DNA of 64,000 nt from Microcoleus sp. AS-A8 (GTDB lineage: Bacteria; Cyanobacteriota; Cyanobacteriia; Cyanobacteriales; Coleofasciculaceae): NCBI GenBank assembly GCA_039962225.1, contig JAMPKV010000008.1, positions 1 through 64,000 on the forward strand, read 5' to 3'. The notes beneath the pieces are model-generated. The model worked only from the letters and a program-made list of their open reading frames with translations. It did no database searches and was not told the DNA's origin. The position numbers and the translations under genes are program-made. Positions 14,752 through 34,636 of this stretch are shown piece by piece. How positions within the stretch are numbered: the first letter of the stretch is position 1; the number at the start of each line of letters is the position of its first letter.

Positions 14752-15726
14752 GTGTTTACCACTGCACTTGCCCAACGAGACTCTGCCCAGACTGGTGCCT
14801 TACCTCACGACCTATTTGAAGCCATTGGTGCTCTCAAAAAAGAACTCAATGCCGTCCTGCTGGCTCACTACTACCAAGACCCCGACCTTCAAGATATCGC
14901 AGACTACATTGGCGATTCCCTCGAACTTTCGCGCAAAGCCGCTAGTACCGATGCCGATGTGATTGTCTTTGTCGGTGTCCATTTCATGGCAGAAACCGCC
15001 AAAATCCTCAATCCTGACAAACTGGTGTTGTTGCCCGATTTAGACGCGGGTTGCTCACTCGCCGATAGTTGTCCACCCGATGCTTTCGCCAAATTTAAGG
15101 CCGCTCACCCCAATCATCTGGTCATTTCCTACATCAACTGCTCCGCCGAAATCAAGGCGATGAGCGACATCATCTGTACCAGTTCCAACGCGGTCAAGAT
15201 TGTTAACCAAATTCCCAAAGACCAACCGATTATTTTTGCTCCGGATCGCAATCTCGGACGCTATGTAGCGGAACAAACGGGACGAGACCTTGTGCTGTGG
15301 CAGGGAAGTTGTATTGTCCATGAAACCTTCTCAGAACGGAAGATTGTTCAGCTTAAAATTGAACATCCAGAAGCGGAGGTGATTGCTCACCCGGAATGTG
15401 AACCCACGGTACTGCGTCACGCCAGTTATATTGGCTCGACTACTGCATTGCTGAAGTATTCTCAAGCAAGTTCCACTCAAACTTTTATTGTGGCGACGGA
15501 ACCGGGGATTATTCACCAAATGCAAAAGCAAGCACCTGGTAAACGCTTCATCCCAGCACCACCAATCAACAATTGTGCCTGTAATGAGTGTCCGTTCATG
15601 CGGCTTAATACCTTAGAAAAGCTGTATCTTGCCATGAAGAATCGTCAACCAGAAATCACGCTACCTGAACACATACAAGTAGCGGCTCTACGACCGATTC
15701 AGCGTATGTTGGAAATGAGTGTGTAG
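14752..15726 (+). CDS. nadA: Quinolinate synthase A
   Basis: 324 residues from a GTG start. NadA condenses iminoaspartate with dihydroxyacetone phosphate to quinolinate in de novo NAD synthesis, using an oxygen-sensitive 4Fe-4S cluster. Visible signatures: [20 protein letters not shown] near 38-57, [11 protein letters not shown] (98-108), [11 protein letters not shown] with Cys130, AHPECEP with Cys216, and the CACNECPFM block (275-283) that supplies the third cluster ligand. Three-fold repeated architecture and length match the family. nadB is not in the window. Confidence 0.95.
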
Positions 15727-22130: not shown

Positions 22131-24618
22131 ATTAAAGTCGGCGACTCTCTCACGAGAGCCGCTGCTCTCCAAAACCGTGCTTGAGACTTTCGCCTCACAC
22201 GGCTCCTCAATGATTTGGTGTATTGTCAAACACACCTCATTACCCAATTCCCGTTGACCATTTCTAGTTTTCTGGGGGGCTTAGGCTCGGCACTGTTACA
22301 GCCGGATTTGTTGCCAAAACTACCATCTCTGGTGGTTTTTATGTCGTGGCAATGTCTGTGAAGGAGCTGCCAATTGTCGTATTTATCCTTTCCACCTTGC
22401 GATTTTGGGATTTTATGGTCAATCTCCATCACATCTTCCTCACGGAAGTGTAAATTGCACCTGGTGCATATCCCTTTTTGTTTCTTCAAGAGCATTGCTA
22501 CTCTCGTTGGCATCTCAGGGTTTTCACCTTTTCTTTTGCTCCAATAAACTAGGTTTCCGTCGTATGGAGACGCTTCGCCTTTAACTTTTACATGACGAAC
22601 TATAGGAGTTTTGGCATGGTCAAGTAACCGGAGGGGGTTATTTCCCTCCCTAGTCGCGAAGACCCAGTTATCGCCGCCTATGGTTATCCAATAGCGCTTA
22701 ACCACATCCCCCATATTCTTTTTGGGGTGGCGGCGTTTTGCCCAAGCGCGAAGCTTTTGGTACATGAGATTATCTAATTCTGCGTAAGTTACCTTGCTTA
22801 CTACAGTTGAGAAGTAATTAGACCAACCCCTAATGATTGGATTGAGATGTTTAATAAGCGCCGATTGGGGCGCTGCCTTATGGCGGCTAATTACGTCCGC
22901 AATTTTGTCGTAATGTACCTTTACTTTCTCTTTACTTGGGGTGATGATGGTTTTAATGCCAAGTAATTCTCCGTGTGTATTTTTACCCGTGTGGTACTTA
23001 CCTACAGAGAATTGGCGTATGTTGAAGCCGAGGAAGTTAAATCCCGGCTTCTCATTTTCCACCGGATTAAGGGTGTGAGCCAATCGGGTCTTACTGGGCT
23101 TTAGTTCCAAACCCATGTCTTTTAACCAGTCAGAGATAATCACCTGACATCCTTGGACTACGGTTATGTCTTCGTGGAGAATAACGAAGTCGTCGGCGTA
23201 TCGGATAAGGCTTACGCTGAGTTTTCTATTAATTAGGCTTATACCCAACTTTAATGACCCAACGTATTCTTTTATCCGTTCTTCCATCCCGTGGAGGGCA
23301 ATATTGGCAAGTAGTGGCGATATGACGCCACCTTGCGGTGTACCCTCGGATGTGGGAAACAGCTCTTTGCCATCCATTACTCCCGCTTTTAACCAAGACC
23401 TGACTTGCCGTCTTAGGGTGGGGAATGTATTTAATTTTGCGAGCAGTTTCTCCTGGTCGATGCGGTCAAAACATTTTGCAATGTCGGCGTCAAGCACGTA
23501 TTTCGATTTGACGTTGATTGCCTTGAAAATTGATCCAATCGCATCGTGACATGACCTACCTGGTCTGAACCCATAGCTATTAGGTTCAAATCGCGCTTCC
23601 CATTCTGGCTCTAGAGCCAGTTTGACTAGCGCTTGCAAGGCGCGGTCTTTCATTGTAGGTATTCCCAAGGGTCGTTTCTCTTCCGTTCCGGGTTTTGGAA
23701 TCCATACTCTCCGGGTTGGACTTGCCTTGGTTCCCAGGTGTAATTTATTTACAAGTTCAAGACGTTGCTTTGGGGTCAGGCTTTTTTGCCCATCCACTCC
23801 TGCCGTCTTTTTACCTTGGTTGTCCTGGGTCACTCTACGAACCGACAATGCTCTTGCTGACCAAGATTTCATCAGCATCTTTTGGAGTTTGCGAAGTGCT
23901 TTGATATCACCACGATTAGAGGCTTGATAGATTCGCTTTTGGAGCTTAAACACCCGCTTTTCCAGCTTTCGCCAGTCTATCGAGCGCCATTCCACCATCA
24001 GTTGTTTAGACCGTGTTTTAGACATATTTACTCTTAATTGGACTCTATCTTCCAAATCACCGTGGGAACGTCAGCATATCCAGGGCATTACCCCTGGCAT
24101 TCGCTTCTTTCCCAATCTCTCCTACCCGCTGTATACGGTTAGCACCTGCTCTCGGTATTCGACCTCCGAGAGAACAAACGGGAGGTTACTTCGTTCCAAA
24201 TGACCATTCTGTGTACCTTTAGAGTGACACTATTCGCCGGGTTTATGGGAAGTGCTTGTTGGTCGAGTAGGTAATCGCCAACTCCCTATCCTTAACCTTT
24301 TGGTTCCAGCCTATCAGCCTTATTTGGCTGGTTTGGAATAGCGACGATTCAATCGTGTCTTCAAGCCGAGGCTTTTACTCATGGGTACTTTGCTCGATGG
24401 GTACCGGATTAGGCTTCCAGTATTGCCACCTTTTCACCCCGCTTCAGGCGTTGATGGCTAGTCGCAAACCTGGGGGTGATGCTTTCACTCCTGCACCTGG
24501 AGGAAGGGTCTTGCACCCTCATGGTCATTCAGTTATCGTGGTTCTGATGGCTTGCGCCTCATTTACCAAGTTCGTCATCCCTAAGTATTGCTACCTATTT
24601 CGACGAAACGAATCGCAC
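22131..24618 (-). mobile_element. Group II intron with maturase ORF
   Basis: Minus-strand element of about 2.49 kb. The 5' end fits GTGCG at 24618-24614, followed by CGTCGAAA- and GACGAACTTGG-type domain I text. Near the 3' end, domain V reads GAGCCGTGTGAGGCGAAAG and then CTCAAGCACGGTT (about 22174-22207). Domain VI has a perfect 9-bp stem capped by GTGA and a bulged A seven nucleotides before the 3' terminal AAT at 22131, giving the required AY end. The 5' boundary is inferred from consensus, not from an empty site. Confidence 0.8.
22226..24025 (-). CDS. ltrA: Group II intron reverse transcriptase/maturase with HNH domain
   Basis: 599 residues from ATG 24025 (TTG 24055 upstream adds ten). 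RT blocks are intact: KRPLGIPTMKDRALQ, YGFRPGRSCHDAI, LDADIAKCFDRID, EGTPQGGVISPLLAN and the catalytic YADD (LIRYADDFVIL). The maturase X domain follows (LKHLNPIIRGWSNYF). The C-terminal HNH has CTRCNLHFREEDVMEIDHK, then HRHCHDIKTT. The protein splices its intron RNA and carries out target-primed insertion. All motifs present, so likely functional. Confidence 0.95.
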   Translation of the reverse strand: MSKTRSKQLMVEWRSIDWRKLEKRVFKLQKRIYQASNRGDIKALRKLQKMLMKSWSARALSVRRVTQDNQGKKTAGVDGQKSLTPKQRLELVNKLHLGTKASPTRRVWIPKPGTEEKRPLGIPTMKDRALQALVKLALEPEWEARFEPNSYGFRPGRSCHDAIGSIFKAINVKSKYVLDADIAKCFDRIDQEKLLAKLNTFPTLRRQVRSWLKAGVMDGKELFPTSEGTPQGGVISPLLANIALHGMEERIKEYVGSLKLGISLINRKLSVSLIRYADDFVILHEDITVVQGCQVIISDWLKDMGLELKPSKTRLAHTLNPVENEKPGFNFLGFNIRQFSVGKYHTGKNTHGELLGIKTIITPSKEKVKVHYDKIADVISRHKAAPQSALIKHLNPIIRGWSNYFSTVVSKVTYAELDNLMYQKLRAWAKRRHPKKNMGDVVKRYWITIGGDNWVFATREGNNPLRLLDHAKTPIVRHVKVKGEASPYDGNLVYWSKRKGENPEMPTRVAMLLKKQKGICTRCNLHFREEDVMEIDHKIPKSQGGKDKYDNWQLLHRHCHDIKTTRDGSFGNKSGCNSAEPKPPRKLEMVNGNWVMRCV

Positions 24619-25825: not shown

Positions 25826-26404
25826 TTACCAGATTGAGTCAAGATTTAGGACAAATCCAGGCAGAATTTTTTCTCCTGAAAGGGTAGCAGGAGATTCAAG
25901 CACTTCAACCTCTTGATTAGGTCTATAAATTTCTACTTTCCGAGTTTCTAAGCCAATTAACCAACCCAATCTAGCACCGTTATCTCGGTACTCTCGCATT
26001 TTATTTTGTAGCCGTTTTAAACAATCAGCAGCAGAGCGCAATTCTGCTACAAAATCAGGACATACTGGCGCAAATCTTTCTTTTTGCTCCTGAGTAAGAG
26101 CATCCCATCTGTCGCGCTTCAACCAAGACGCATCAGGCGAACGAACCGCACCATTTGGTAGAGTGAAACCCGTAGAAGAATCGAAACCAATTCCCAGCCT
26201 ATCATCACGATTCCACATCCCAAGTTGAGCCGTTAAACTGGCATTGCTGATGCTAGTTGTACCGCCAACAAGAGGCATTAGCACTAATGTGCCATCAGCA
26301 TTACGCTCAAATCTAATAAGTTCGTTCTGCTGACATAGCTGGAAGAATTGCTCATCAGTTAGGTTAATAACCGAGTTAAAGTTGACAGTTAAAGCAGACA
26401 TCAA
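25826..26404 (-). CDS. Uma2-family putative nuclease (DUF820)
   Basis: 192 residues with the PD-(D/E)XK fold of Uma2: NLTDEQFFQLCQQNELIRFER, SPDASWLKRDRW (catalytic Asp), CPDFVAELRSAADCLKRLQNKM (Glu and following basic residue) and GARLGWLIGLETRKVEIYR. Uma2 genes are highly amplified in cyanobacteria; role is uncertain. It follows another Uma2 gene by 13 nt on the same strand. Confidence 0.9.
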   Translation of the reverse strand: MMSALTVNFNSVINLTDEQFFQLCQQNELIRFERNADGTLVLMPLVGGTTSISNASLTAQLGMWNRDDRLGIGFDSSTGFTLPNGAVRSPDASWLKRDRWDALTQEQKERFAPVCPDFVAELRSAADCLKRLQNKMREYRDNGARLGWLIGLETRKVEIYRPNQEVEVLESPATLSGEKILPGFVLNLDSIW

Positions 26405-26417
26405 GTGATTCCTCTAC

Positions 26418-27071
26418 CTACTGGCTTCGTAACTGTTGCCGCACCCATTCCCTAAATTCCCGCAGCCTAGCATTCTCACCTTTTTGAGGGTCTAGTTGTA
26501 TAAATTGTGTAACTTCTTTTACTGGAAACGACCCAAACGCTAGACTAGTTTCAGATTCCACATAACCTGTATCCGTCAGAATATTGACTGTAAGTTTGCC
26601 CTTATGCCAACGCCAAACCTCTGGCACCTTTAGTTCAGCGTAGACTGCCATCTTATCGATTGATGAGTGAGTTGCATCGATCTCAATTGCTAAGTCGGGT
26701 GGTGGGTCAACTGTAAGGTCGATTTTTAACTTGCTGCGAACTAAGGCTTCGTTTTGAATATAAAAACATTCATCGGCTTCTTTGCCAGCCGTTTTGGGTT
26801 TTGAGCGCCAAGTAGTTGATTTCAACCCCCGAATCTCCAGTCCCAGTTCTTCAGATAGCGCTGCTACTAACCGACCAAGTGTCCAGCCATATGTTTCATG
26901 TTCTGGTAGGGGTGTCATCAGTTCTAGAGTTCCCTTATAGTAAGTCATGCGAAGACCTGGATGCTCTGCAAAGACATCTAGAAGTTTCTCATACATTTCC
27001 CAACTGATGTCATTCAAGACTAGATGGGAACCTATCGTTGGTGATGTTGCTGGGGTTAGGGTTTGAGCCAT
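26418..27071 (-). CDS. Uma2-family putative nuclease (DUF820), second copy
   Basis: 217 residues: DISWEMYEKLLDVFAEHPGL, YYKGTLELMTPLPEHETYG, KEADECFYI (Asp/Glu site), DLTVDPPPDLAIEIDATHSS (catalytic Asp-x-Glu block) and VPEVWRWHKGKL. It belongs to a different Uma2 subgroup from the downstream gene, so the pair is not a recent tandem duplication. First gene of the two-gene unit. Confidence 0.9.
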   Translation of the reverse strand: MAQTLTPATSPTIGSHLVLNDISWEMYEKLLDVFAEHPGLRMTYYKGTLELMTPLPEHETYGWTLGRLVAALSEELGLEIRGLKSTTWRSKPKTAGKEADECFYIQNEALVRSKLKIDLTVDPPPDLAIEIDATHSSIDKMAVYAELKVPEVWRWHKGKLTVNILTDTGYVESETSLAFGSFPVKEVTQFIQLDPQKGENARLREFREWVRQQLRSQ

Positions 27072-27427
27072 GATTCAATTTAAGTCTGTATCTGCCTACA
27101 ACTTTAAGCTAATTGATTGGGCTTGTGGTTTAAGTTCTGGATATGGTGCGTTAGCGTAGCGGCGCTTCAGTGTTTCACATCTTGGGGAAAATAGACGCGA
27201 TAGCACTTTGGGCAAGATACACGCGATCGCTTTCCTGTAAGTGTGCTGCTCCCCGTATATATTGAACTTAGGGCATTGATGCTAAAGAATATGTCAATCA
27301 GGAACGAGATTCATGGAATGGATAGCCCAGCTACAGGGGGCTGACACGGGCTTTGTTGTGCCATAGTTGAACCGCTTAGATACAATGCATAATAAATTTA
27401 GGTTTAATTATCAGTTATACTCGTGAG
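27072..27427. other. Intergenic region upstream of vapBC with repeat fragments
   Basis: About 355 nt with no gene. At 27180-27236 are fragments ACTTTGGGCAAGATACACGCGATCGC-like and AAAATAGACGCGATAGC that match the 52-bp tandem repeat found on the far side of vapBC (28134-28350). Confidence 0.55.
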
Positions 27428-27673
27428 ATGGAAACTATTCGTCAAGTAGTTCAAGTAGGCAAAAGTCGCCAAATTCAACTTACTCTACCTGAGAGTGTGG
27501 AACCGGGTTTAGTAGAAGTTGTGATTGTTGTGCAACCTCTCTCAAATCAGACAAAATCAATCGATGATCGCGCTCAAGAAAATCAAATTGTAGAGCTATT
27601 TGGTTTTTTGCCACGACGGGTAGATCCACTACAATTCCAGCAAGAACTGAGAAAGGAGTGGGATAGATATTGA
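27428..27673 (+). CDS. VapB-like antitoxin
   Basis: 81 residues. The N-terminus (METIRQVVQVGKSRQIQLTLPESVEPG) resembles a beta-rich DNA-binding start, and the acidic/aromatic C-terminus (FQQELRKEWDRY) is typical of a toxin-wrapping tail. Its stop overlaps the start region of the PIN-domain gene, so the two are coupled. Assignment as antitoxin rests mainly on position and size. Confidence 0.72.
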   Translation: METIRQVVQVGKSRQIQLTLPESVEPGLVEVVIVVQPLSNQTKSIDDRAQENQIVELFGFLPRRVDPLQFQQELRKEWDRY

Positions 27674-28049
27674 TTATCTACTAGATACAAATATCTTGAT
27701 TTACTATTTCAATGGAGAGTTGGCTGTCCGAGCGATCGTTGATGAAATCCGCTCTGGCGATGCCTTAGGATTATACTGTCCTATTACTTGGGTGGAGTTG
27801 CTATGCTACCCTGGTTTGAGTGAGATTGAAGCCAATCAAATACGACAATTATTGAGAGAGCTTACCTATGTACCCCTTACAGAAGCAGTTTTAGATCGTG
27901 CTGCTCAAATTCGTCGTGATTATCGGTCGATGTTAGCGGACGCTTTAATTGCTGCTTGTGCTTTGATTGAGGGATGTACTCTGGTGACTCGTAATATTGA
28001 TGATTTTAGACGTATTGATGGGTTGATTCTGTTGAACCCTTTTGATTAG
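27669..28049 (+). CDS. VapC-like PIN-domain toxin, apparently with ATT start
   Basis: 126 residues if started at ATT 27669, overlapping the antitoxin stop. The first ATG/GTG/TTG in frame is TTG 27696, which would remove the first catalytic Asp (YLLDTNILIYYF). The other PIN acidic residues are present: Glu in ITWVELLCYPGL, Asp in LADALIAACA and Asp in TRNIDDFRRI. PIN toxins are Mg-dependent RNases. The fold needs the upstream residues, so a non-standard start or a sequence error is implied. Confidence 0.82.
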   Translation: MDYLLDTNILIYYFNGELAVRAIVDEIRSGDALGLYCPITWVELLCYPGLSEIEANQIRQLLRELTYVPLTEAVLDRAAQIRRDYRSMLADALIAACALIEGCTLVTRNIDDFRRIDGLILLNPFD

Positions 28050-28052
28050 GAT

Positions 28053-28350
28053 GAGCGATCGTACTTTGGTAAAAATAGACGCGTGAAGCGAAGCTATCGC
28101 GTTAGCGAATCACATCCACGATACTCCAAACGCGATCGCACCTTGGGAAAGATAGACGAGATCGCATCCACCAACACAGAAGCACGATCGCACTTTGGCA
28201 AAGATAGACGCGATCGCATCCACCGACACATAAAGGCGATCGCACTTTGGGCAAGATAGACACGATCGCATCCACCGACACATAAAGGCGATCGCACTTT
28301 GGCAAAGATAGACGCGATCGCATCCACGATACAGAAACGTGATCACACTT
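28053..28350. repeat. 52-bp tandem repeat with HIP1 sites
   Basis: Units begin GATCGCAC-TTTGG at 28134, 28186, 28238, 28290 and (diverged) 28341, giving periods of 52, 52, 52 and 51 bp. Each unit holds two (G)CGATCGC sites separated by the phrase AAGATAGACG and followed by CATCCACCGACACATAAAG. A partial, interrupted unit starts at about 28053. The repeats are open in several frames but no protein is plausible. Related fragments occur upstream of vapBC at 27180-27236. Confidence 0.85.
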
Positions 28351-28363
28351 TCCTCTTAATCAA

Positions 28364-28570
28364 TTAGGCGAACATTAAGCGACCTTTCGGTTCAGGAATC
28401 GGACGCCCTAACTCCTTGGCAGTCTCAATCCACTCTTGCATAATGATTTCTACATTTTGCACAGCTTCTTGATAAGTTTCCCCATCAGCAGCACAACCCG
28501 GTAACTCTGGTACCTCAGCAATAAATGCTTGGTCTTCTTCGCTCCAGTATAGGATGACCTCATAACGCAT
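28364..28570 (-). CDS. hicB: HicB-family antitoxin
   Basis: 68 residues from ATG 28570. The HicB partial RNase-H-like fold is clear: MRYEVILYWSEEDQAFIAEV, PELPGCAADGETYQEAVQNV, EIIMQEWIETAKELGRPIPEP. No C-terminal DNA-binding domain, so it is the short form. Overlaps the end of hicA by 11 nt, which is the usual toxin-first order. Confidence 0.9.
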   Translation of the reverse strand: MRYEVILYWSEEDQAFIAEVPELPGCAADGETYQEAVQNVEIIMQEWIETAKELGRPIPEPKGRLMFA

Positions 28571-28838
28571 CATCATCTTGGGCATCATCTTGGCTTACCA
28601 ATTTGTACTTCAAAATCACTGCTCGGACTTGCTTAACCTGATAGGCTTTACCTTTGGCATTTTTGGGTTGCAGATTCAGGATTTCTTCGACACCTTCTTT
28701 GCTAAAAATGTGATGACTACCGTTAATCCGCTCGTCAAAGCCAAGTTGGCGTAGGCGTTGACACATTGGAGCAAAGGGGATGTTGGCATCTGAAGTCCCA
28801 CTTAGGATTTTGGCTAAAAGTTTGTCTAGTTGACTCAT
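28560..28838 (-). CDS. hicA: HicA-family toxin
   Basis: 92 residues, slightly longer than typical HicA. The dsRBD-like fold shows as FAPMCQRLRQLGFDERI, the catalytic-His segment GSHHIFSKEG, and QPKNAKGKAYQVKQVRAVILK. HicA toxins cleave mRNA; HicB neutralises them. It precedes and overlaps hicB. Confidence 0.88.
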   Translation of the reverse strand: MSQLDKLLAKILSGTSDANIPFAPMCQRLRQLGFDERINGSHHIFSKEGVEEILNLQPKNAKGKAYQVKQVRAVILKYKLVSQDDAQDDDAL

Positions 28839-29143: not shown

Positions 29144-30445
29144 CTAGGCTGAAGCCCCTACAGGTTCGGATGCTACCTCTACTACAGGCTTGGGCAACGC
29201 CTTTAGCTCAACATCCGGGTCATTAATGTCGATACCATTTGCAAGGTTGTATTCCCGATGAACTGCCTCGATTTCTTCTGCTGTCATCTTGTCAGCAGCA
29301 ATGAGATAGGCGATCAGTTTTCCTCCCAAATTCTGTGCCTGTTGCGCCCTAGCCATCGTTCCGCTAGGAGTTACAAGTACGTTTGTCCAAATGTCTGAAG
29401 ACATCCCCCAGTCAATTTTGTTAGCTCGTTGCACGGCTTCACAAAGGCTGAGACGATTGTCCCGTGTTGCAGCAATCAGACCTTTGAACAAAGCAATTTG
29501 TGGAGCTGACTTGAAAAGTAGTGAGTACGGCTGGTCTTCCTTACGCATCTGTGGAATTTGGCTACTGTCCTGTAGTGCCTCTTGGTAAGGCTGTAGCCCC
29601 TCTAAAATAGTATTCCAGAACTGTTCAGCCCATTCATAGTATTGCTCAAGCTCCTCTTCTGACGGGCGAGAAGTTGGATCAATTGGCACACCCTTAGCTG
29701 GGAGAATAAGCTTTACAGTCTCGTAGACAACGCTGATAGTCGTCAGCTTTATGCTTCGTGCCGCCAGAGTATTACTCTTCCACTCAACAATCACATCACT
29801 GCTACCCTTTGCCTTTACACCCAGTGGCGCTCCATCGCTCAGAAGCTTCCGTGCAATAATGGCACTACGGTCATCCTCACTAGTGATAATGTTGTCACCT
29901 CGACTAGTTGGTTTAGCATAGCGATTAACCTTATTGAAGATGCGCCTGGTTTTCTCGTTGCTTTCATGATTAATGAAAATGACGCAGACATCATCCCTTG
30001 GTACTTCCTCGCGACACTCTCCATTGACCTCACCGTTGTAGACCATTTCGAGGGCTAGAAGTCGGTGCTGACCATCCAGCATGATCAGAGAGCCACCGTC
30101 AATTGTAATGACACCAATATCATCTGCTACTGATTGGTAGGCTCGTGGAGCCTTGTTAGATACCCAATCTTTGATGCTGTCAAAGTAAATTTCTCCCTTG
30201 TAAACCAAGACTATTACCGCGCCGAAGAAGCGATCCTTCGCTTCAGCAATATAGGGAGCAATCTGTTCCCTAATTCGTGTCATGTCTGGTTCGCGTTGCA
30301 GCCGATCCTCAATGGTCATGGTTGTCCACTCATCAAGTTCCTTTGCTGGACGTACCCCTTGTACCAGATCACGAACCTTCATGGTTGCTTGGTAAAAGTC
30401 AGTGTTACCCATCTGTCCCTTTATACAGGGAATGACTAAAGCCAT
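29144..30445 (-). CDS. DndB-like DGQHR-domain protein, orphan
   Basis: 433 residues. The diagnostic DGQHR motif is present in SLIMLDGQHRLLALEMV (about 118-134), with VCVIFINHESNEKTRRIFNKVNRYAKPTSRGDNI downstream, both typical of the DndB/DGQHR family. In DNA phosphorothioation systems DndB regulates the dnd operon; many cyanobacteria also have stand-alone relatives of unknown role. No dndA, C, D or E genes occur in the window. The upstream 220 nt hold three evenly spaced TGTTT-N4-AAACA palindromes, so the gene is probably tightly regulated, possibly by its own product. C-terminus (EIEAVHREYNLANGIDINDP) is family-like. Confidence 0.82.
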   Translation of the reverse strand: MALVIPCIKGQMGNTDFYQATMKVRDLVQGVRPAKELDEWTTMTIEDRLQREPDMTRIREQIAPYIAEAKDRFFGAVIVLVYKGEIYFDSIKDWVSNKAPRAYQSVADDIGVITIDGGSLIMLDGQHRLLALEMVYNGEVNGECREEVPRDDVCVIFINHESNEKTRRIFNKVNRYAKPTSRGDNIITSEDDRSAIIARKLLSDGAPLGVKAKGSSDVIVEWKSNTLAARSIKLTTISVVYETVKLILPAKGVPIDPTSRPSEEELEQYYEWAEQFWNTILEGLQPYQEALQDSSQIPQMRKEDQPYSLLFKSAPQIALFKGLIAATRDNRLSLCEAVQRANKIDWGMSSDIWTNVLVTPSGTMARAQQAQNLGGKLIAYLIAADKMTAEEIEAVHREYNLANGIDINDPDVELKALPKPVVEVASEPVGASA

Positions 30446-30489
30446 TGATTTTCTCTAAAGAAGATTGAGTTTGAGCAAAAATAACCTAT

Positions 30490-30505
30490 TTGTTTTCGCA
30501 AACAA
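30490..30505. promoter_or_regulatory. Operator-like palindrome 1 upstream of DndB-like gene
   Basis: TTGTTT-TCGC-AAACAA, perfect 6-bp arms, 45 bp upstream of the start codon on the minus strand. Confidence 0.7.
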
Positions 30506-30532
30506 CAAGATTAATTACTGTCTCATCTCCTA

Positions 30533-30548
30533 ATGTTTGCACAAACAA
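30533..30548. promoter_or_regulatory. Operator-like palindrome 2 upstream of DndB-like gene
   Basis: ATGTTT-GCAC-AAACAA; 5-bp core arms TGTTT/AAACA match copies 1 and 3. It begins 43 bp from copy 1, about four helical turns. Confidence 0.7.
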
Positions 30549-30574
30549 TAACAAATAGTCAACAAACATAACTG

Positions 30575-30590
30575 ATGTTTTTGCAAACAA
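30575..30590. promoter_or_regulatory. Operator-like palindrome 3 upstream of DndB-like gene
   Basis: ATGTTT-TTGC-AAACAA. It begins 42 bp from copy 2, so all three sites lie on one face of the helix. Half-sites (ACAAATAG, AACAAACA) occur between copies 2 and 3. Confidence 0.7.
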
Positions 30591-30618
30591 CAGCCAATCA
30601 AGCCCCTATAAACGCGGA

Positions 30619-30639
30619 AGGCACGGTCATGCCGTGCCT
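30619..30639 (-). terminator. Hairpin downstream of chlH
   Basis: AGGCACGG (30619-30626) and CCGTGCCT (30632-30639) pair around a 5-nt loop just past the chlH stop. There is no clear T-run, so it may be one of the GGCACGGCA-type palindromic repeats (compare 56279-56301) serving as a 3' structure. Confidence 0.5.
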
Positions 30640-30664
30640 CTCACCCTATTTATGAAGTATCAAC

Positions 30665-33600
30665 CTACTCAATTCCTTCAATCCGATCCTCAACCTCCTG
30701 ATACAACTCGCGCAACATCTGCAAATTACTCTCACTCGTCTCCCAATAACCCCGACCATTCACTTCCAGCAACGTCGATACAACCTTGCGGAAGGAATGA
30801 GGATTTAGATTCATCAACCGCTTCCGCATTTCTTCATCCTGGATAAACGTGGTATTCGTATCCTCGTAAATCCAGTTATCGACAGCACCAGCCGTTGCAG
30901 ACCAACCCATCGTATTCACCAACCGCTTCGAGAGTTCCCGCACTCCCTCATACCCGTGACTCAGCATTCCCTCGTACCACTTGGGATTGAGTAGCTTCGT
31001 CCGCGCATCCAAACGCACGGTTTCCGAAAGGGTGCGGATTTGGGCATTTGCTGTTGTGGTATCGGCAATGTACGAGGCTGGCGTCTTGCCATCTCCTCGC
31101 AGACTGGCGACAACTTTGGTGGGGTCAGAATCGAAATAGTGGCTGACATCTGTCAGACTAATCTCGGCAGAATCGAGATTTTGGAACGTAGCATCAGCGG
31201 TTTTCAAGGCTGTCTCAAAAATCTGCCGATTCTGTTCCATCGTGCCTGGGTTGTCGGAGGTGAAGGCAAACGACTTCCGTGCCAGGTACATATCCTGTAA
31301 CTCAGATTCGCTTTCCCAAGTGCTGTTTTCTACTGCCAGGTTGATATTAGAAGAGTAGGAACCCGAAGCATTGGAGAAGACGCGAGTTGCCGCTTGCCGC
31401 AGATTAATCCCCATTTCCTCTGCCTGTTGCATCGCGTGTTTGCGGACAAAGTTCATCTCCAAGGGTTCGTCCGCCTCTGCTGCCATTTTCACCGCTTGGT
31501 CGAGGAGGTTCATTTGGTTGATGAACAAGTCGCGGAAGACGCCGGAACAGTTGATCACAACATCAATCCGAGGACGCCCCAACTCTTCTAAGGAAAGCAA
31601 TTCTAACTTGTTCACGCGACCTAAGGCATCGGGTACAGGTTTAACCCCCACCATCCACATAATTTGTGCCAACGATTCCCCATAGGTCTTGATGTTATCT
31701 GTACCCCAGAGGACACAAGCAATGGTTTCAGGCCACTTCCCGCCATTTTCATAGCGTTGACGTTCCAGCAGGCGGTCTACCACAATTTTGGCTGATTTAA
31801 CCGCCGCCGTTGTGGGGATGGATTGGGGGTCGAGGGCGTGGATGTTCTTTCCTGTAGGCAATACATCAGGGTTGCGGATGGGGTCGCCACCGGGTCCTGG
31901 GAGGACGTACTCGCCTTCCAGGGCTTTCAGCATTGCCCCTAGTTCGTTATCCGCCACGATTTGCTGGAGGCAGAATTCCAAGTACTCAAACAACGGTTTC
32001 AGCGCTTGTTCGTCAACCTTGGTGTAACCTAATTGATGCATCGCTTCAATCCAAGGCTCTTTTTTGCCCATGTTGAAGAAATTGAGCTTGGAGACTTTGG
32101 ATACCCGACCATCTGCATCGGCTTGCGCTTTCACCAAGGCGGAGACGGCTTCACGAGTTGTCAAGGTAATCTCTTGCAACAATTGGACATCACTTAAGAC
32201 GCCTCTGTCGTTATTGGTGTAAATTTCATCAATATCGCGCCCGATACTATTGGCGATAATCCGAGGTAAACTCAGGATTTCCTCTTCAGGACGGTCAAGT
32301 CCAGCAATATTGACTAAAGTTGCGATCGCTTCTTCCGCTGTTGGTGGTTTGCCAATCACATGCAACCCACAGGGCAGCAAGCGCGATTCAATCTCCATCA
32401 GCTTTTTGTACACCAAGCCTACCACCGTATCCCGTTCCTCTGCGGTCAGCCCACTGGCGTCTTCAACTAAGTCGATATCCTTATCCAGATTCACCAAGCG
32501 GCACTTATCCATGATGGTGTTCACAATCGGGATACCCCGCCCCGTATCTTTCAGGGTTTGGTAAGACGCAATTAATTCACTCAGTTCCTTCAACCCCTTG
32601 TACAACCCCGCATTCTCAGCCGGGGGTGTGAGGTAGGAAATCGTTGCAGCATAACTGCGGCGCTTGGCAATCGTCGCCTCACTGGGATTATTCGCGGCGT
32701 AGTAGTAGAGATTGGGGGTGGAACCAATCAAGTTATCCGGGTAACACGTTCCCGACATCCCCATTTGCTTACCGGGCATGAATTCCAGAGAACCATGAGT
32801 TCCGAAGTGCAGTACTGCGTCAGCTTTCCAGATTTTTTCTAAATAGGTATAGTAAGCGGCAAAACCATGATGGGGGCTGGCAGAACGAGAGAACAACAAC
32901 CGCATCGGGTCGCCTTCGTAACCAAAGGTGGGTTGAACCCCGATGAAAACATTACCAAATTGCTTGCCGTAAACTAAGAGATTTTGTCCATCACTATTTA
33001 AATTTCCCGGAGGTGGCCCCCAGTTTTCTTCCAACCGTGTTGAATAAGGGGTAAGTTCTTCATACTCCGGCACTGACATCTTGTAGGCAATATTCAGTTC
33101 GGGAGTGGCATATTGCGCTTGGGCGTCGTGAATCACCTGTTGCATCAACGCCTCGGATGATTCTGGCAAACCTTGGACATCGTAGCCGTTGTTGTTCAGG
33201 GCTTCCATCAGTTTATAGATGGAACCAAACACATCCAAATAAGCGGCTGTTCCCACATTCCCTTTATCTGGCGGGAAGCTGAAAACAGTGATAGCAACTT
33301 TCTTATCGAGTTTGGGTTTGCGGCGCAGGTTAGCCCATTTTAAAGCACGCTGGGCGATCGCTTCGATGCGGTCTTGGAGTGCGATCGCTTTTCCGGTTGT
33401 CCCATCTCTACCGGATAAAATAATAGGCTCGATCGCTCCATCCAATTCAGGAATGGCAATCTGCAACGCCACTTGAATCGGGTGCAAGCCTAAATCGCTA
33501 TCTTCCCACTCTTCTGTGGTTTGGAATACTAAGGGCAGTGCCACCATGTAGGGGCGATTCAACCGTTTTAATGATTCAATCGCTTTAGGATGGTCTTGCC

Positions 33601-34636
33601 GTGCGGGGCCACCCACCAAAGCGAAACCTGTGAGCGATACAACGCCGTCCACCAAGGCTGTCGGTGTTTTAGCGGTGGATTCGTAGAAGAAAGCATCGAC
33701 CGGTTTGGAGAAATCTAGACCCCCGGCAAATACAGGAATCACACGAGCACCCATAGCTTCAAATTCCTGTACGATTGCTACATAGTGAGCATCATCCCCT
33801 GTAACCAAGTGGGTACGTTGCAACACTAAGCCAATGGAGGGGGCTAGGGGGTCTTTTAAGTCGGCAGAGATGTCCTTGCGGCTACTGTACCAGTTCAGAT
33901 ACTCCTTGACATCCTCAAACATGGTCGGAGCCAAGGGATGCCAAATGCCCATATCGGGGTAAACCACTGGCTCATTGAAGCTCAGTTGACGCCCTTTCAA
34001 GACATACTTATCAGCGAGCATCAGCAGGAAGTTCTCCAAGTTATCGGAGGAACCACCCAGCCAATATTGGAAGCTAAGCATGAAGTTCCGGGCATCCTGC
34101 GCCTTATCCATCGGTAGGTACTTCAGGACTTTGGGCAGGGTTTGCAACAGCTTCAGCATCCCGTCTTGGAAGGAGGAACCGGATTTCTCCTTGCGCTTTC
34201 GCATGAATTGGGCGATCGCACTCTTGGATTGACCCAGTTGCGCCATCGAGAAGCTACCCAATTTATTAAGGCGCATCACCTGAGGCATGGAGGGGAAGAC
34301 GATAGCCGCGTCAAGGTGATCGCGGTGCGGTTCTACTGCCGCCACCACCTTATCCGCTAAGTCTTCAATAAAGATGAGTGAAGCAATAAAGATATTGGCT
34401 TGGGCAATATCCCGCTTAAAGTCCTCATAGTTTCCGCTGTCGCGGAGTTCCTCGATTAAATAGCCACTAATTTCAACCGCTAAGTTGGGATTGTTTTGAT
34501 TGATTGATTGAACAGCGGCTGATAATGCACTCTGATACTGTGGCTCTAGCACGACATAGACCACCTTAAGCAAATGACGCCCATTCAGGGCACCGGGGGT
34601 AATGTGTCGAATGGTGGACTTGACGTGTGTGAACAT
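30665..34636 (-). CDS. chlH: Magnesium chelatase subunit H
   Basis: 1323 residues, full length for ChlH. It binds protoporphyrin IX and, with ATPase subunits ChlI and ChlD, inserts Mg2+ at the first committed step of chlorophyll synthesis. Typical blocks run through the CobN/Mg-chelatase fold: [19 protein letters not shown] near 90, [19 protein letters not shown] near 625-645, [20 protein letters not shown], and the C-terminal [16 protein letters not shown] and [12 protein letters not shown]. The start is supported by AAGGAGCG 9 nt upstream. chlI and chlD are elsewhere. Likely light- and stress-regulated; the upstream region carries TTGTTT half-sites. Confidence 0.97.

Follow-up and report, generated by a model that had tools for sequence, protein, structure and literature searches.

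A solitary DGQHR/DndB-superfamily gene with three phased palindromes: a putative self-regulating cassette behind chlH in cyanobacteria

The closest described system is DndB of Salmonella enterica (DptB), the autorepressor of dndBCDE, which represses its own operon and binds two palindromes that occur as a pair at no promoter but its own (PMC4507180); PMC10853773 also cites an autoregulation of DndB that is modulated by ATP. The DGQHR domain has been assigned to the ParB/sulfiredoxin fold (PMC4619093; PMC10853773), and ParB/Srx proteins have been proposed as stand-alone NTPases or nucleases in conflicts between elements (discussed in PMC10853773).

The gene analysed here lies in a 64-kb window (the whole stretch of DNA under study, on contig C8 of the 7.75-Mb source genome, G000), between chlH on one side and toxin-antitoxin-like or Uma2-like genes. 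Like Salmonella DndB, its product, P0001, contains a DGQHR domain, more than one palindrome overlaps the promoter, and the multiple palindromes are restricted to the gene's own promoter. Unlike the Salmonella gene, it has three phased sites, sits outside any dnd operon, and carries TGTTT-N4-AAACA in place of TACGN10CGTA, an operator difference that counts against reading P0001 as an autorepressor; matches to the Salmonella motif near the gene were at chance level only.

The nearest clade consists, along with two viral-contig proteins, of DGQHR proteins from cyanobacterial SspABCD loci and from rhizobial and Roseobacter plasmid dnd or Ssp loci, 25–27% identical over the full length. Those are encoded inside modification loci, usually right behind a small gene (GIY-YIG-like in some), whereas the window gene is solitary, under a promoter array of its own. 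The N-terminal part of P0001 is predicted to have the fold of ParB, Noc and KorB, CTPase repressors and partition proteins that, like this locus, go with palindromic DNA sites. The parS site ends in TGTTT, as do the window palindromes, but the window site is two bases shorter in the centre, and a search of the window for parS found none. The DGQHR proteins of conjugative enterobacterial plasmids, annotated as DGQHR-domain proteins and not as dndB products, are distant in sequence; 954 plasmid records matched a DndB query.

A small gene directly upstream of the DGQHR gene was observed inside SspABCD or dnd loci (L049, L051, L031, L033, L112 and plasmids L117–L119), the hosts of the pair being cyanobacteria, Roseobacter and Rhizobium. 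For a few loci the small gene looks GIY-YIG-like, clearly so in L114 and weakly in L112 and L118. L114, a viral contig of 178 kb, has at its end an operon (L114:2670-5574) that encodes a GIY-YIG protein, a DGQHR protein and an HD (dGTPase-like) protein and lies under a pair of ATTGTACAAT sites. The small gene and the DGQHR gene may form a two-gene module that phosphorothioation systems have acquired.

The DGQHR protein and the dnd genes of its host

The DGQHR/DndB-type assignment made in the initial annotation was borne out by profile searches, P0001 matching PF14072 (DndB) at an E-value of 1e-33 (117 bits, cut-off 29) and scoring 110.5 bits against TIGR03187 (DGQHR), above the curated cut-off of 58.9, which places it in the superfamily. 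The DGQHR motif is intact and is invariant in the alignment (A1). P0001 fell under the DndB equivalog cut-off (TIGR03233; 75 vs 328 bits) and shares 21% identity with the DndB encoded in the same genome. In a tree of 23 sequences, P0001 and its four orthologues formed their own clade (support 97/100), which joined two viral-contig proteins (L113 and L114) and the SspABCD-linked DGQHR proteins (86/93); DndB was separate (98/99), and P0001 did not cluster with it. By the curated model, P0001 is not DndB itself; we read it as a solitary DndB paralogue.

Structure prediction with AlphaFold2 gave a pLDDT of 54 from an input of 12 near relatives, and a deeper alignment was used instead (pLDDT 87.5), giving a predicted ParB/sulfiredoxin-fold N-terminal domain and a helical C-terminal half. 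For residues 13–179, the top rows in VIA-align were ParB, Noc, KorB, sulfiredoxin (Srx) and SspE, with Z scores of 3.9–5.8 that are individually modest; nearly all of the top 25 rows belonged to the ParB/sulfiredoxin superfamily, and the best match, in the ParB/Noc/KorB group, had a Z of 5.8 and 2.7 Å over 95 residues of the N-terminal part. Foldseek alone gave weak matches, and a sequence search for solved relatives returned none. The C-terminal half has no recognised fold, and DNA binding might lie there, which counts against the autorepression reading.

The gene is not encoded with dndCDE, and the initial statement that it has no dnd partners nearby holds for the 64-kb window but fails for the genome. 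Contig C9 encodes a 552-aa DGQHR protein, a true DndB (426 bits), together with an HNH protein, DndC (703 bits) and DndD (691 bits), which rules out a genome free of dnd. In this cluster (L045:7652-18000), the HNH gene lies between dndB and dndC, a small transposase-like gene (14991-15434) interrupts the cluster between dndC and dndD, and long palindromic repeats, e.g. GCCAGGGATTTAAATCCCTGGC, are abundant upstream of dndB.

All five orthologue-bearing genomes have dndC distant from the DGQHR gene: the clusters of G338, G672 and G769 encode DndC, DndD and a second protein of ~400 aa (in G338 it matches the Pfam model of DndB), while DndC-like and DndD-like genes are present in G801. This co-occurrence is not significant as evidence, a dnd-linked DGQHR protein of ~550 aa being common to most genomes of the family; cyanobacterial dnd clusters are moreover enriched in Nostocales (PMC8569181), so co-residence alone is uninformative. 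The initial annotation had allowed that a dnd cluster elsewhere with the same palindromes might explain them; the dnd clusters (L045–L047, L110, L111) contained no exact site, and one-mismatch matches were at chance level.

The palindromes and their conservation

Three exact TGTTT-N4-AAACA palindromes lie in the gap of 219 bases between the ATG of the P0001 gene and chlH (Table 1), their starts 43 and 42 bp apart just as first described, a spacing of four helical turns. The window has zero further exact matches (0.15 expected), and none of 100 shuffles of the window reached three sites. Across the whole source genome there are 12 single sites, vs 18 for the reversed control pattern, which is background, and 3 of the 12 are in the P0001 promoter. 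A motif regulon was ruled out, single sites being at background in all five orthologue-bearing genomes.

Table 1. Coordinates of the gene, its upstream neighbour and the features between them (window numbering)
Feature	Position	Strand	Remarks
DGQHR/DndB-superfamily gene (P0001)	29144..30445	minus	433 aa; DGQHR motif at residues 124–128
Operator-like site 3	30491..30504	minus	−59 from ATG; plus strand TGTTTTCGCAAACA, gene orientation TGTTTGCGAAAACA; in presumed leader
Operator-like site 2	30534..30547	minus	−102 from ATG; plus strand TGTTTGCACAAACA, gene orientation TGTTTGTGCAAACA
Candidate −35 box TTGACT	30557..30562	minus	Inferred promoter
Operator-like site 1	30576..30589	minus	−144 from ATG; plus strand TGTTTTTGCAAACA, gene orientation TGTTTGCAAAAACA
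chlH (magnesium chelatase subunit H)	30665..34636	minus	Directly upstream of the P0001 gene, same direction

Orthologue searches covered 386 genomes of the phylum, 391 of the order, 22 of the family and 218 of a second family, and yielded four orthologues besides P0001 at 72–81% identity, in G338, G672, G769 and G801 (G672 is a Nostoc MAG, NZ_JABXKM010000190.1, and G767 is apparently the same genome, both counted once). The orthologue is absent from the sister species, G386. A 55-residue stretch in a different genus of the family (G404; L011:658-822) is 64% identical to P0001 residues 293–347, and is probably a decayed copy of the DGQHR gene.

As the initial annotation had proposed to check, the same three sites recur upstream of orthologues: G338 and G672, whose proteins are 78 and 81% identical to P0001, have them at −143, −101 and −59. 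In the three-orthologue alignment, 30 of 30 core bases are invariant vs 21 of 56 spacer bases (Fisher p 1e-9), with 43 of 74 invariant upstream of the sites and 23 of 45 downstream, and site 2 is identical (TGTTTGTGCAAACA) in all three genomes. The equal spacing is by itself weak evidence, since the whole intergenic region aligns almost gap-free; the conservation of the sites themselves in this comparison shows selection. TTGAC is likewise invariant, exactly 15 nt ahead of site 2 in all three, and with a −35 to −10 spacing of 17–18 nt the −10 would fall inside site 2, which overlaps the candidate −10 region. A simple sigma-70 promoter scan gave the candidate promoter no score.

The other two orthologues have fewer copies, with two of TGTTTGTACAAACA in G769 (980 and 40 bp ahead of the start) and one in G801 (666 bp upstream of the gene), and the sequence is found nowhere else in these genomes (8.3 and 8.7 Mb). 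The Poisson p for any TGTTTN4AAACA upstream of the orthologue is 2e-6 in G769 and 2e-3 in G801. Both the restriction of the triple phased array to three of five orthologues and the distance in G801 count against autorepression. A search of the 391 genomes of the order for two sites 24–34 bp apart found such pairs only in G000, in G338 and at one locus of G360, the last being unrelated, a tandem duplication where a terminator-like region follows a repeat-protein gene. The TGTTT-N4-AAACA motif is hence tied to the DGQHR gene, and the early description of a lone, heavily regulated DGQHR gene stands locally, with sites conserved and restricted to the gene as expected for self-repression.

The sites could instead belong to a different regulator encoded elsewhere (e.g. 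of the Cro/CI or GntR type), with P0001 as an effector that does not bind them. TGTTT-N4-AAACA is a generic operator shape, and in the remote viral relative L113 a TTGACA-N17-TATAAT promoter is closely preceded by two TGTTT-N5-AAACA copies 22 bp apart; these palindromes adjoin a divergent Cro/CI-type gene (HTH_26) and could belong to it. The second viral relative, L114, has its two ATTGTACAAT copies 22 bp apart around a TTGACT, and by analogy the paired palindromes of L113 and L114 lend weaker, independent support to self-regulation. Since there is no regulon, the sites move with the gene between genomes, and the five neighbourhoods have no regulator gene in common, we regard ownership by another regulator as unlikely.

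Several copies of the core are embedded in longer inverted repeats. Site 1 of the window is a portion of a longer imperfect hairpin 3′ of chlH; the site 1 core has 8 extra pairs in a longer perfect inverted repeat in G338, and 3 extra pairs followed by nine T in G672; the G769 cores have 8 and 11 extra pairs, and the G801 core 9 followed by a T-run. The extended hairpins of these four genomes have energies of −7.7 to −20 kcal/mol, and their stems differ in sequence yet stay paired. With the tip constant and the stems covarying, at least some of the copies seem to act as hairpins or terminators as well. If the palindromes were essentially nucleic-acid hairpins, the tip would be recognised in RNA or extruded DNA and would control chlH readthrough or DGQHR translation, a reading with which the covarying stems, the two terminator-like T-runs, and a G769 hairpin ending just ahead of a Shine-Dalgarno sequence agree. 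Sites 2 and 3 of the triple arrays, however, have no extended arms and fold weakly, and the four-turn spacing and overlap with the candidate promoter suit double-stranded DNA binding, leaving hairpin control as quite improbable. More improbable still is that the palindromes are inherited chlH terminators or structural repeats with no regulatory role for the DGQHR gene: site 1 of G672 looks like an additional terminator of chlH and the G801 site is also like a terminator, but sites 2 and 3 are not, the core is invariant where stems and spacers diverge, and a separate chlH terminator hairpin is present.

Probable exchange at the chlH slot

All five orthologues lie directly behind chlH in the same direction, so chlH is taken as a genomic slot, not a partner. 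Between G672 and G769, ChlH is 98% identical (DNA 95.5% up to the gene end), whereas the DGQHR proteins are 74% identical and the promoters differ; between G000 and G672, which belong to different lineages, the DGQHR proteins are 81% and ChlH 86% identical, and both have the triple array. By these contrasts, different alleles have entered the slot, and each has a control region of its own. The distribution is sporadic (5 among several hundred genomes). Gene and operators thus appear, from these comparisons, to travel as a self-contained cassette that is exchanged among cyanobacteria at the chlH slot.

Beside the DGQHR gene, the window contains Uma2-like genes, a small VapB/VapC-like pair and a HicA-like gene (25826-28838), and in G338, G672 and G769 the slot has Uma2-like neighbours as well, which suggests a turnover hot spot. 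Further along (22226-24055) is what looks by sequence like a group II intron-type reverse transcriptase/maturase with an HNH domain.

Proposed mechanism and significance

We favour, with moderate confidence, the reading that P0001 is a nucleotide-binding, oligomeric autorepressor acting on three operators, gene and operators forming the cassette exchanged behind chlH. P0001 would most likely bind nucleotide, and its oligomer would bind the three operators over its own promoter and repress it, with site 2 covering the −10 region and the other two placed ahead of the −35 (site 1) and within the leader (site 3). Repression would be lifted by some signal in the cell, plausibly the nucleotide or redox state, which has been proposed for DndB. 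That P0001 is the binder, that binding represses, that nucleotide controls it and what its output is are inferred by analogy; autoregulation fits because it follows the DndB precedent, with a protein of predicted ParB fold, palindromes confined to the gene that encodes it and set four turns apart, and a central site over the inferred promoter.

As output, P0001 may tune the distant dnd system or act as a stand-alone NTPase or nuclease against invaders; the sporadic distribution and the exchange at one slot slightly favour the latter, and a role separate from phosphorothioation, as initially proposed, is possible. A variant in which P0001 reads the fixed tip TGTTTGTACAAACA in freely varying hairpin stems (structured DNA or RNA) as well as linear operators, the mobile self-regulating cassette encoding a stand-alone guard independent of phosphorothioation, is given a small probability.

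DGQHR/DndB proteins outside dnd operons have so far been unexplained. For P0001, the operators can be named to the base, gene and operators move jointly, and the host has a separate dnd cluster, so that a single strain would allow two questions to be tested: whether a DGQHR protein represses its own gene away from dnd, and whether it senses nucleotides, DNA sulfur or invading DNA.
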